NCBI RefSeq assembly: GCF_000420265.1
Contig: NZ_ATUP01000001.1
Span: forward strand, 1,984,001 to 2,048,000
DNA: 64,000 nucleotides
DNA from: Oceanicaulis alexandrii DSM 11625
Lineage (GTDB): Bacteria; Pseudomonadota; Alphaproteobacteria; Caulobacterales; Maricaulaceae
Reading direction: 5' to 3'
Shown in pieces: positions 56,055-60,732 of this stretch. The stretch's first letter is position 1; the number at the start of each line of letters is the position of its first letter. The translations under genes were made by a program, and so were the position numbers. The notes under the pieces are model-generated. The model was not told the origin of the DNA. It saw nothing but the letters and a program-made list of their open reading frames with translations, and did not search any database.

Positions 56055-56600
56055 CTAGCTCTCGTAGGGCAGGATTTCTGTCAGCTCGATCGTATAGGCG
56101 GTGTCGCCCAGATCATTGTCATGACGATCAGTGTGCATCACGCCTTTGACGTAGACCGGATCCCATAAGCCCTGAATTCGAATGGGCTCTTCAGCATGCA
56201 CATAGACCAGCTGATTGGGCGGCGGCGGCGGCACGTGAATGCAGGCGCCCACATAGGGCACCAGCAAGAAGCGGCTGATTTCCTGCGACCCGGTAAAGTC
56301 AAACGGCAGCACATAGCCGCCCAGGCGCACGATCTGACCGTCCAGCGCGTCCACCGTGTTGAAGGTCTGCACCTGCGGCATCCGGTCGGCGCCGAAATGG
56401 TCCATGCCGTTCTGGATCGCCTGCATCTGTTGCAATTGGGCGATGCGCTCGGCTTCGCCTTCAGGCAACAGATCAGCCCAGGACAGGTCCAGGAATTGCG
56501 GGGTGGACTGCGCTTCGGCGCGGTCCATGGAAACGGCTGCGGTCGCGCCGGTCAGCGCGGCGCCAGCCAGAAAGGCGGAGAGAAGAAGTTTGCGCATCAT
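56055..56600 (-). CDS. DUF3299 family secreted protein
   Basis: 181 aa from the ATG at 56600 (a second ATG is at 56597). Signal peptide (LLLSAFLAGAALTGATAAV), then DUF3299: FLDLSWADLLPEGE, FNTVDALDGQIVRLGGYVLPF, SRFLLVPYVGACIHVPPPPPNQLVYVHA, and a late GVMHTDRHDNDLGDTAYTIEL. The PYVGACIHVPPPPxNQ block with its Cys and His suggests metal binding. The family is often next to DUF2796 and zinc transport genes, as here. It is the third gene of the ZIP-DUF2796-DUF3299 run. Confidence 0.9.
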   Translation of the reverse strand: MMRKLLLSAFLAGAALTGATAAVSMDRAEAQSTPQFLDLSWADLLPEGEAERIAQLQQMQAIQNGMDHFGADRMPQVQTFNTVDALDGQIVRLGGYVLPFDFTGSQEISRFLLVPYVGACIHVPPPPPNQLVYVHAEEPIRIQGLWDPVYVKGVMHTDRHDNDLGDTAYTIELTEILPYES

Positions 56601-56663
56601 GCCTCGCAAAATGCGCTCGCTGATCCTGAAGCGCAAGTTACGAGGCTGAAAAGAGTGCGCGTC

Positions 56664-57314
56664 TTAGTCCAGACGCAGAACGGGCCTGGCCGGGGTGAGG
56701 TCCTGCGCGGCGGCGCGTGCGCCGTCAAAGTACTGAACTTCCACCGTTTCAAACGGATTGAACGCCTCAAACAGGCCTGACAGGTCCACCTCTGTGAGGC
56801 GCTCGGGGCGGGCGCAATCAAACGTCCAGCTCACCACCACATCGGCATGGCCATGGTTCGTATGGTCGTCGTGACTGTGATCATCATGATCATCATGGTC
56901 ATGGTGGTCATGGGGGGCTGATGCATCCTCATGCATGTGCTCATTATCAGCTTCATGATCATGCTCATGGTGATGATCGTTGGATGCTTCGGCGGGGCCG
57001 CCGCCGACTTGCGTCCCTGTGAGCGTGCATTGTGCGGCGCTGGACAGGGCGATCATGGAGGGGCTCGCCAGCGTGCGCGCCGCTTGCGCGACCACGGCCT
57101 GGTCCTCAGGGGTCTCGGGCGCGTGTTCGAAGACATAAAGATTGAACGCAGGCGTCGTCAGCTCGGCCAGCACGGCGCCGTCCGCATCTGCGGCGACCGC
57201 CAGCTGCGCCGCGCCATGCACGTGCGCGCCGAGCTGTCGCATCGGGTCCGCGCTTTGCGCCAGAGCGGTTGAAGACAGAAGGCAGGCGGTGAGGCAGGCG
57301 ATACCCAAACGCAT
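56664..57314 (-). CDS. DUF2796 (ZrgA-like) periplasmic zinc-binding protein
   Basis: 216 aa. Signal peptide ending LAQ (about residue 20), then HRxL-type start QLGAHVHGAAQLAVAADADGAVLAELTTPAFNLYVFEHAPET, the DUF2796 signature. A long His/Asp stretch near residues 112-155 (DHHHEHDHE; HDHHDHDDHDDHSHDDH) supplies many metal ligands. C-terminal ERLTEVDLSGLFEAFNPFETVEVQYFDG is conserved. It likely gathers Zn2+ in the periplasm. The end of the ZIP gene abuts its start. Confidence 0.92.
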   Translation of the reverse strand: MRLGIACLTACLLSSTALAQSADPMRQLGAHVHGAAQLAVAADADGAVLAELTTPAFNLYVFEHAPETPEDQAVVAQAARTLASPSMIALSSAAQCTLTGTQVGGGPAEASNDHHHEHDHEADNEHMHEDASAPHDHHDHDDHDDHSHDDHTNHGHADVVVSWTFDCARPERLTEVDLSGLFEAFNPFETVEVQYFDGARAAAQDLTPARPVLRLD

Positions 57315-58123
57315 CAGCGGTCTCCTTGGGAATGAGAATATCGGAAGTCAGGCAGGATCGACGCCCCATGTCCATGGGAGTCATGAGAATGCCCGTCTGA
57401 ATGACCCAGCGTCATAATGGCGGCGACGCCGGCGCCCGCGAAAACGGCGCTCAAGCCCTTGAGCCAGCCCGCTTGCGCGGTTTCCCCCAATAGGTGGGAG
57501 GCGCCCACCTGCAGCAGCAGACCCGCGACCACTGCGAACAGCATGCCCAGCAGAGCTGGGTCAACACTGAGGGCGAACGGGCCTGAAATGACCGCGGACA
57601 AAAGGGTGGTCGCGCCCGCCGCCAAAAACGCCAACACGGTGGCGGCGCGATCAGAGAAGCCGCCACGCTGAAGCAGCAAGAAGCAGATCAGCGTCTCCGG
57701 CATTTCGTGCAGGATCAGACCCGTCGCCGTGCTGATCGCCGTGTAGGGATCAATCGCGGAGGTGACGGCGTAGACGGTCCCGTCCAGGGTGGAATGCACG
57801 GCGATCGCCAGAACGGGCGCCAGCGCCCGCATGCGGCCGGCTGTGGTCTGCGTCTGCATGGTGGCGCCCACCAGAACATGCAGCACCAGCCCGAAGCCGA
57901 ACCCGGCCAGCACCAGCCATCCTGCATAGGGATGCAAGACCAGCGCTTCGGGGATCAGCCGCACCAGCGCCAGCGTCACCACCACGCCGCCAGAGAAGGC
58001 GGCGAACAGGGGCGCATTGGCGCGCGTAAAGCCGCTGGCGCGATGCACGAGCATCAGCGCCAGGGCGCAGACAAGCGCGGCGGTCAGCCCAAGGCTGAGC
58101 GTGAGGAGATAGGCGGCAGACAC
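57314..58123 (-). CDS. ZIP family metal transporter
   Basis: 269 aa, about eight transmembrane helices. Metal-site motifs are LAIAVHSTLDGTVYAVTSAI and GLILHEMPETLICFLLL (HEMPE), typical of ZIP. The C-terminal loop is His rich (GHSDGHSHDSHGHGASI). The start is GTG at 58123. It leads a run ZIP-DUF2796-DUF3299, overlapping the DUF2796 gene by one base. It carries Zn2+ (or other divalent metal) into the cytosol. A Zur-like inverted sequence lies 18 bases before its start. Confidence 0.92.
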   Translation of the reverse strand: MSAAYLLTLSLGLTAALVCALALMLVHRASGFTRANAPLFAAFSGGVVVTLALVRLIPEALVLHPYAGWLVLAGFGFGLVLHVLVGATMQTQTTAGRMRALAPVLAIAVHSTLDGTVYAVTSAIDPYTAISTATGLILHEMPETLICFLLLQRGGFSDRAATVLAFLAAGATTLLSAVISGPFALSVDPALLGMLFAVVAGLLLQVGASHLLGETAQAGWLKGLSAVFAGAGVAAIMTLGHSDGHSHDSHGHGASILPDFRYSHSQGDR

Positions 58124-58140: not shown

Positions 58141-58157
58141 GTGTTATATTGTTTCAC
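58141..58157. promoter_or_regulatory. candidate Zur box upstream of ZIP gene
   Basis: GTGTTATATTGTTTCAC is an AT-rich imperfect inverted repeat (GTG...CAC ends; 10 of 17 positions match its reverse complement) in a GC-rich region, directly upstream of the zinc operon. It resembles the TGTTATANNATAACA-type Zur site only loosely. Confidence 0.35.
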
Positions 58158-58319: not shown

Positions 58320-58802
58320 TCAGCCCATCTCGCCGGGCGACATCTGGCTTTGCATATAGCGTTCTTCGCCCACTTTCTCGATCAGGCTGAGCTGGGTTTC
58401 GAGATAGTCGATATGCTCTTCTTCAGATTTCAGGATTTCATCAAACAGCTGACGGCTGCCGTAATCGCCGACCTGTTCGCAATACGCGATGGCGTCCTTG
58501 TAAACCGGATGCGCACGGCGCTCCGCCTCAAGGTCGCATTCCAGGCACTCCTTGAGGGTCTCGCCGATCAGCACCTTCCCCAGATCCTGAACATTGGGCA
58601 GGCCTTCCAGAAACAGGATGCGCTCGATCAGCGCATCGGCGTGTTTCATCTCGTCGATGGATTCTTCGTATTCGACCTTGGCGATCTTTGCGAAGCCCCA
58701 GTCTTTGAACATGCGCGCATGAAGGAAGTATTGGTTGACCGTTGTCAGTTCCAGGCGCAGCGCCTTGTTCAGGTGCTCGATAACCTTGGGATCGCCCTTC
58801 AT
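58320..58802 (-). CDS. bfr: bacterioferritin
   Basis: 160 aa from the ATG at 58802 (MKGDPKVIEHLNKALRLELTTVNQYFLHARMF), with GGAG upstream. The ferroxidase ligands (Glu18, Glu51, His54, Glu94, Glu127, His130 by family numbering) are carried by VEYEESIDEMKHADALIERILFLEGLP (with the heme-binding Met), CLECDLEAERRAHPVYKDAI and LFDEILKSEEEHIDYLETQL. It stores iron as a 24-mer. Bfd is encoded 1.5 kb away on the same strand. Confidence 0.97.
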   Translation of the reverse strand: MKGDPKVIEHLNKALRLELTTVNQYFLHARMFKDWGFAKIAKVEYEESIDEMKHADALIERILFLEGLPNVQDLGKVLIGETLKECLECDLEAERRAHPVYKDAIAYCEQVGDYGSRQLFDEILKSEEEHIDYLETQLSLIEKVGEERYMQSQMSPGEMG

Positions 58803-59020
58803 GGCCGTCTCCATTGTGTTGAAAATCAAGACTTGAAACTAGCGAGTTTGGCCTGTGAGGGAAGGGGCTTGGGCCAATTATCTTCGTCACTGATACTGAG
58901 TTGCACCAAAGCCGTCGCTCTACCCAGGTGGTGTCAGCTTTTCTTCACGATGTCTCACCAATCTGATGGTCCGGGGTGCAAAATTCTGGCAGATTACCTC
59001 AAAATAAGAGGGTCATATAT

Positions 59021-60265
59021 ATGCCGAGACCGGCGGATGTTCTTGCCTCTATTAGAGAGCAGCTACGCGGCGCCAAAAGTGTCGCCTTGGGTCAGTTTCA
59101 GATCATTAATCTGGACTTGATTAAGAACGTGGCTGGGAATCGCTGGGAAGACCTCAAGACTAAAATTTTTGATGTCAGCGAAGCGTTTATCGCGCGACGC
59201 CTGCAACCCAGTGACGTGCTGTTCCGCTGCGATGAAGGCTTTCTGGTCATTTTTGACACGGAGCGGGCCAATGCGGCCGAAGCGCAAGCCGCCTGGATTT
59301 CCGAAGAGCTCAACCGGTTTTATGTGGGCGATGAGATTTTTCGCAAGCTGAAGGTCAGCTCTCGGGCGCTGAGGCTTGACCAGAGCGAACTCGCCGCCTT
59401 TTTCGCCGCCCAGGGCGTCAGTCAGGTTTCAGACACAAAGCCGGGCGTTTCAGAAGGACAGAAGGAAGAGCAAGCGCTTCATCCTGAAACCCTGCGCACT
59501 CGTGTAGCCTATGAGCCGGTCTATGACCTGACGCGCCAAGCCTTGATCTCGTCGTTTTGCCTGCCTGTCAGGAATGTCGGGGGCGTGCTTCGGTTCGGCC
59601 ACCGGCATGAATACCCGTTTGAGGCGCATGTGACGGCGCAGCGCGACTTTGACGTCCAGATGCTGGTGCTTGACGCGCTGGAGGCGTGCTGGGCGAAAGG
59701 GCATTCCGCCGCCGTGTGCCTGACCCCGCATTACCGCACCCTGGTCGAGCCTCATGACAGACAGGAATACTATGCCCGCCTTCGCGCCTTGCCGGAGCAT
59801 TTGCACAAGGCGGTGACCATCCGCATAGACGGCACGCCGGACGGCGCGCCCATCAGCCGACTACAGGAAATTACCGGCACGCTCAGAACCTTGAAGATCA
59901 AATGCCTGGTGCAGTGTCATACGCTGGAGTTCGAGATCGAGCGCTATGAGGGCTGCGGCGTGCAGGCCTTCGGCGGCGCGATGAAGGACCTCACGCGGGG
60001 CTCGCCCATCGGCTCGGATTTGCAAGACAAACTGGCGCAACTGGTCGCGCGCGCAGCGCGTCTGGGCGCTGACACCTATGCCGCCGCGGTGGCGAGACAG
60101 ACCAGTTTCATGGTGCTTAGGGAGTTGGGCGTGCGATGGTATAGCGGACCGTTCATCGCGCCCATGCTGACGCGATTGCCGCTCGTGCAGCCTTTGTCGT
60201 TGTCCATGTTGTCTGAGCGTTCAGATACGCTTGAGCCTCAAGCCGCGCCGCTTCCAGCCGAATAA
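59021..60265 (+). CDS. degenerate GGDEF-EAL-like protein
   Basis: 414 aa from the ATG at 59021 with AAGAGGG upstream. The N-terminal part (residues about 18-125) looks like a GGDEF fold (GQFQIINLDLIKNVAG, then PSDVLFRCDEGFLVIFDT), but the catalytic GG(D/E)EF is replaced by CDEGF. The C-terminal part (about 160-385) resembles EAL: RVAYEPVYDLTRQALISSF, VTIRIDGTPDGAPISRLQEI and AARLGADTYAAAVARQTSFMVLRELGVRWYSGPFIAPML, the last aligning with the A-x-G-V-E...LGxxxxQGYLFxxP ending. The EAL triad is missing, so cyclic-di-GMP turnover is not expected; ligand sensing is possible. It lies between bfr and bfd. The domain call is by eye. Confidence 0.65.
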   Translation: MPRPADVLASIREQLRGAKSVALGQFQIINLDLIKNVAGNRWEDLKTKIFDVSEAFIARRLQPSDVLFRCDEGFLVIFDTERANAAEAQAAWISEELNRFYVGDEIFRKLKVSSRALRLDQSELAAFFAAQGVSQVSDTKPGVSEGQKEEQALHPETLRTRVAYEPVYDLTRQALISSFCLPVRNVGGVLRFGHRHEYPFEAHVTAQRDFDVQMLVLDALEACWAKGHSAAVCLTPHYRTLVEPHDRQEYYARLRALPEHLHKAVTIRIDGTPDGAPISRLQEITGTLRTLKIKCLVQCHTLEFEIERYEGCGVQAFGGAMKDLTRGSPIGSDLQDKLAQLVARAARLGADTYAAAVARQTSFMVLRELGVRWYSGPFIAPMLTRLPLVQPLSLSMLSERSDTLEPQAAPLPAE

Positions 60266-60270
60266 ACGGC

Positions 60271-60456
60271 TCAGGCCGCCGCGCCAGCCGTTTCAGCCCG
60301 GTCATGACCCATCACGCGCGCCGCTTCTTCAAAGCACCGGCCGCATCGGGGCTTGGCGCCGCACGCCTTGAACGCACTCGGCACATCGCCGGCGCCGTTT
60401 TTGGCGGCGGCTTTGAATTGGGTGCATTTCAGCGCGTTGCAGAGGCAAACATACAT
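60271..60456 (-). CDS. bfd: bacterioferritin-associated ferredoxin
   Basis: 61 aa from the ATG at 60456 (MYVCLCNALKCTQFKAAAKN). [2Fe-2S] ligands are Cys4 and Cys6 (CLC) and the CGAKPRCGRC cluster. Bfd reduces Bfr-stored Fe3+ to release iron. A 9-bp inverted repeat resembling Fur boxes lies 42-74 bases upstream. The stop is 5 bases from the convergent GGDEF-EAL-like gene. Confidence 0.93.
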   Translation of the reverse strand: MYVCLCNALKCTQFKAAAKNGAGDVPSAFKACGAKPRCGRCFEEAARVMGHDRAETAGAAA

Positions 60457-60497
60457 GGAGCAGATCCGTGATGCGGGTTGCGAGTGTGTACGCAAAT

Positions 60498-60530
60498 CAT
60501 TCGCAACTAATATAGTCATTCTTGCGAATG
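60498..60530. promoter_or_regulatory. candidate Fur-type box upstream of bfd
   Basis: CATTCGCAA (60498-60506) and TTGCGAATG (60522-60530) form a perfect 9-bp inverted repeat, each half flanked by sequence like the GCAAATCATTCGCAA type of Fur site. They are in the bfd promoter region. Fur, Irr or RirA as the binder is undecided. Confidence 0.55.
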
Positions 60531-60732
60531 AGTGTCAACGGCGATCTGGAGGGCGCGACTGCCAAAAGTTTAACAGGTGTAAACGCCCTTGTTTCACTGG
60601 ATTCTGAAGCAAACCGTGTTTGATTGAACGGCCTCATGCTTGCGCTAACTGGCTTTCTCATGATGCAATGCAGCAAGAAAGTCCGAACAAAGAGCGTCAC
60701 AAAGACGTCGCGGACAGCATGAGGAGACGGCT

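Follow-up and report, generated by a model that had tools for sequence, protein, structure and literature searches.

A gene between bfr and bfd

A gene that separates bacterioferritin (bfr) from its associated ferredoxin (bfd) raises the question of what its product does, and whether that has anything to do with iron. Such a gene lies in the 64,000-nucleotide stretch of the Oceanicaulis alexandrii genome analysed here (the window), at 59021..60265 on the forward strand, and encodes a protein of 414 aa. On one side is bfr (58320..58805, reverse strand; TIGR00754, E = 3.4e-71), and on the other is bfd (60271..60456, reverse strand; Fer2_BFD, E = 4.5e-5, with the cysteines visible and a score of 24.1 bits, below the cut-off of 26). 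The gene order is thus bfr (-), 59021-60265 (+), bfd (-), in agreement with a preliminary description that placed the gene between the two in opposite orientation. Being divergent from bfr and convergent with bfd, the gene forms an operon with neither. The same description took the product to be a catalytically dead GGDEF-EAL-like protein and proposed a link to iron status.

The coordinates and strand of the open reading frame stand as described. The ATG at 59021 is preceded by a ribosome-binding-like stretch, AGAGGG, and the orthologues start with methionine at the same residue; the frame is already open from a GTG further upstream, at 58976. We compared three orthologues, from the window, L003/L005 and L004, which share pairwise identities of 80-81% or 91%. 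The dN/dS pairs were 0.14/1.57, 0.14/1.33 and 0.05/1.10, a ratio of about 0.05-0.1, indicating purifying selection. We conclude that 59021-60265 is a real, conserved gene.

The C-terminal half resembles the EAL domain of FimX

Comparison of the orthologues divides the protein into two halves, each 84-86% identical, on either side of an unconserved linker at about residues 136-154 (59426..59482, forward strand), where identity falls to 26% (residues 136-158). The C-terminal half (residues 155-395; 59483..60205, forward strand) had been described as ending like an EAL domain. Pfam detected exactly this, matching only the tail of EAL (PF00563) over 53 residues (329-381) with E = 3.5e-4; the score of 20.5 bits is below the cut-off of 31.3. 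PF00563 also matched 11 of 27 relatives, with a best E of 7e-5, and a search of NCBIfam with the 414-aa protein gave no match.

Profile searches extended the likeness to the whole C-terminal half. When a family profile built from an alignment of the 27 relatives was compared with the PDB, FimX EAL domains came out on top (4foj, E = 3.4e-8; 4f3h, 5e-8; 7lkq, 1.4e-7), followed by degenerate EAL entries that bind c-di-GMP (3pjt, 9.7e-5; 3pjw) and by YkuI. We also aligned the C-terminal half, using hhalign, with six good EAL domains of the same genome. The alignment covered 226 columns, a whole domain, with P = 2.6e-10 and a score of 72; none of 200 column-shuffled controls scored above 20.6, and the reversed alignment scored 14.4. 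Cross-comparisons of the N-terminal half with EAL and of the C-terminal half with GGDEF gave nothing. An AlphaFold model built from a two-sequence alignment (window and L003) had a mean pLDDT of 33, too low for a fold to be read from it. We conclude from the profile comparisons that the C-terminal half shares ancestry with EAL domains.

Loss of the EAL catalytic residues

We located the EAL active-site residues by aligning the protein with the L033 EAL domain in hhalign, and determined their conservation over 32 relatives. The glutamate of the EAL motif itself is replaced by F179, the catalytic asparagine by T235, the ELTE glutamate by R268 (I267 by hand count), the catalytic lysine by G318, the two AEGVE glutamates by A355 and A358, and the catalytic glutamine by S375. 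The first aspartate of DDFG is replaced by Q298, and the second falls in a gap. Of the nine residues that active phosphodiesterases have at these sites (E, N, E, DD, K, E, E, Q), eight are thus substituted and one is gapped. At none of these positions is the catalytic residue the commonest one among the 32 relatives. The absence of the EAL glutamates, read by eye in the preliminary description, is therefore seen again in the residue mapping (F179, A355, A358).

A protein that has lost its activity may still sense a ligand, and the degenerate EAL half could in principle bind c-di-GMP or another ligand and signal to a partner, as FimX or LapD does. The nearest solved relatives are indeed the c-di-GMP-binding domains of FimX, and the genome encodes GGDEF and EAL proteins that exceed the Pfam cut-offs, so that c-di-GMP signalling is probably present. 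However, the arginine of the ExLxR motif is replaced by V183 and is not conserved, being present in only 8 of 32 relatives, and the remaining positions (N, D, K, E, Q) are likewise replaced or gapped. The EXLXR site reads F179-C-L-P-V183, which does not match the c-di-GMP binding motif. Moreover, the best conserved residues are mostly not ligand positions: P166 is kept in 32 of 32 relatives and G376 in 31 of 32, and W42, F100 and G103 are invariant in the N-terminal half of the family alignment. We consider a nucleotide receptor of this kind unlikely, if worth keeping in mind.

Described pseudoenzymes offer points of comparison. LapD (PDB 3pjt and 3pjw, entered as cyclic dimeric GMP binding protein) resembles the protein in its degenerate EAL domain and ranks next among the PDB matches, but LapD is a membrane receptor and the 414-aa sequence shows no evident membrane or HAMP part. 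EAL-only pseudoenzymes of the YdiV type are non-catalytic and act through protein contacts. They are set apart, by description, in having a single EAL domain and no GGDEF-like half; the group is discussed in PMC10333796. The closest parallel is FimX of Xanthomonas and Pseudomonas, a cytoplasmic degenerate GGDEF-EAL tandem and the protein that the family profile matches best in the PDB. FimX has additional REC and PAS domains, and an EXLXR-type motif for c-di-GMP binding that is also found in LapD, the other degenerate receptor (PMC10333796); the 414-aa protein has neither a sensor domain nor such a motif.

A probable GGDEF relationship for the N-terminal half

The N-terminal half (residues 1-135; 59021..59425, forward strand) is more divergent. 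Pfam GGDEF (PF00990) did not match the 414-aa protein itself. Alignment by hhalign with nine GGDEF domains of the same genome gave a weak match over 70 columns (P = 4e-4, probability 34%). Nonetheless, its score of 28.8 was reached by none of 200 shuffles, the highest being 19.9, and the reversed alignment scored 14.7. A relative found at class level, L053, matches Pfam GGDEF (E = 1e-4) and then EAL (E = 3e-4), in that order, and a second relative, L058, matches Pfam GGDEF at 0.013. These results suggest that the N-terminal half is probably related to GGDEF domains, weakly but reproducibly.

The statistics are weak enough to consider that EAL ancestry is confined to the C-terminal half, with an unrelated alpha/beta domain in front of it. 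Searching the PDB with the N-terminal profile gave no significant match; the top hit was an unrelated protein and the second a diguanylate cyclase with E = 0.4. The shuffle control, the Pfam matches of L053 and L058, and the order of GGDEF before EAL all argue against an unrelated domain, which we regard as improbable. Thus, the original reading of a degenerate GGDEF-EAL protein holds firmly for the EAL half, through the shuffles and FimX, and with probable strength for the GGDEF half, through the shuffles and L053.

The hhalign alignment also places CDEGF at the position of the GGDEF active site, as first noticed by eye. The loop reads RCDEGF, which departs from GG[DE]EF and lacks the GGDEF glycines; in the family alignment, G73 and F74 are nearly invariant and the rest is unconserved. 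Because the GGDEF motif is degenerate and the EAL catalytic positions are substituted or gapped, both diguanylate cyclase and phosphodiesterase activities are predicted to be lost. The gene would then encode a soluble protein whose GGDEF-like and EAL-like halves, both degenerate, lack enzymatic activity, and which may serve as a scaffold or adaptor through protein contacts, like FimX or other dead EAL proteins. We consider it fairly likely that this doubly degenerate protein has lost both activities and works, most probably, by protein-protein contacts; the interaction role itself we infer from these comparisons.

The bfr/bfd neighbourhood is restricted to three genomes

The protein might regulate iron storage together with Bfr and Bfd, for example by sensing iron status or binding bacterioferritin. 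The placement is maintained in three species, and P. aeruginosa has a c-di-GMP module linked to iron, IsmP-ImcA, that includes a degenerate GGDEF domain (PMC10904736). We compared the locus across the genus. All 15 genomes contain bfr, but the gene lies between bfr and bfd in only three, the closely related Oceanicaulis genomes G000, G085 and G096. In six of the 12 congeners that lack the gene, bfr and bfd are adjacent and share a strand, with 133-545 bp separating them (L059, L061, L067, L068, L071 and L073), and in the other six no bfd match lies within the 1.5 kb covered. We also examined 93 loci that carry a family member, many of which overlap: bfr or bfd is present only at the places in G000, G085 and G096, and outside these genomes none of the other family loci examined adjoins either gene. 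The gene is co-directional with neither neighbour. IsmP detects iron with its CHASE4 domain, and its target is a working diguanylate cyclase (PMC10904736); no CHASE4-type domain is present in the 414-aa protein. A regulator of iron storage is therefore very improbable, and the proposed link to iron status is not supported: the arrangement is confined to the three genomes that have the 80%-identical orthologue. The simplest reading is that the gene arrived between bfr and bfd in a single Oceanicaulis lineage, and we infer that its position is an insertion without functional meaning.

The intergenic region between bfr and the gene contains a conserved block (58866..58922, reverse strand) that is kept in the orthologous loci and is probably the bfr promoter. 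We considered a promoter shared by the two genes and dropped it, since the conserved half is on the bfr side and stretches resembling the block, recognised by eye, also precede bfr in some of the genomes that lack the gene, L073 and L071 among them. A Fur-like pattern matched three times in the window, where 3.9 matches are expected, no excess over chance; two Fur-like motifs lie upstream of bfd (60491-60537), again not above chance over the window.

Next to bfr, genes for a ZIP transporter, a ZrgA zinc-uptake protein and a DUF3299 protein stand in a row (56055-58123, reverse strand). Upstream of this row is a palindrome-like sequence, TGTTATATTGTTTCA, at 58142-58156, which differs from a Zur-like pattern at one position; 0.11 such matches are expected by chance, for a pattern picked after the sequence was seen.

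An unnamed family in Alphaproteobacteria

Within the taxonomic family, 61 of 137 genomes have relatives of the protein, and within the class 80 of 385 do, often several per genome. A search of viral contigs for relatives found none. Phylogenetically, the window belongs to a clade of three with a long branch (1.32), whose closest neighbours in the tree are L006 and L007 (grouping support 87/86). The family, which is alphaproteobacterial and uncharacterised, is unnamed in Pfam and NCBIfam, and no paper naming or treating it was found in the literature library searched. Since its members fall under the Pfam cut-offs, they are likely to be annotated as hypothetical proteins, as are the relatives on two Azospirillum plasmids.

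Several genomes have tandem family members (G067, G077, G447 and G515; L052), suggesting repeated duplication. At another locus (L080:3962-10020, in G003), a family member adjoins a PAS-histidine kinase-receiver protein and is divergent from a TonB receptor.

The O. alexandrii genome contains a dead GGDEF-EAL paralogue of its own (L074:6466-7632, reverse strand), in a block annotated with Pfam (L074:4340-10483) that also includes a divergent TonB-dependent receptor and, close by on the same strand, an S9 peptidase. The block is kept in 15 genomes from three genera (L074, L083, L086-L091, L097-L100, L116, L117 and L119), and outside the two nearest relatives its dead GGDEF-EAL proteins are 38-50% identical. 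With 31 TonB plug domains in the genome, a single TonB neighbour would be unremarkable; the kept gene order is remarkable, and is a possible clue to the family's role. It is tempting to extend this to a widespread set of alphaproteobacterial adaptors, all dead GGDEF-EAL proteins with a part in handling nutrients or metals, with one subfamily at TonB-receptor/S9-peptidase uptake loci and the window copy recruited to the bacterioferritin locus, but we think so broad a scheme very doubtful.

The bfr/bfd position itself is probably uninformative. About a fifth of the sampled alphaproteobacterial genomes carry doubly degenerate GGDEF-EAL proteins of this family, which is multi-copy and has no name. 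If a role for the family came to light, for instance at the conserved locus with the TonB receptor and the S9 peptidase, this would represent a new kind of output for domains derived from c-di-GMP signalling.
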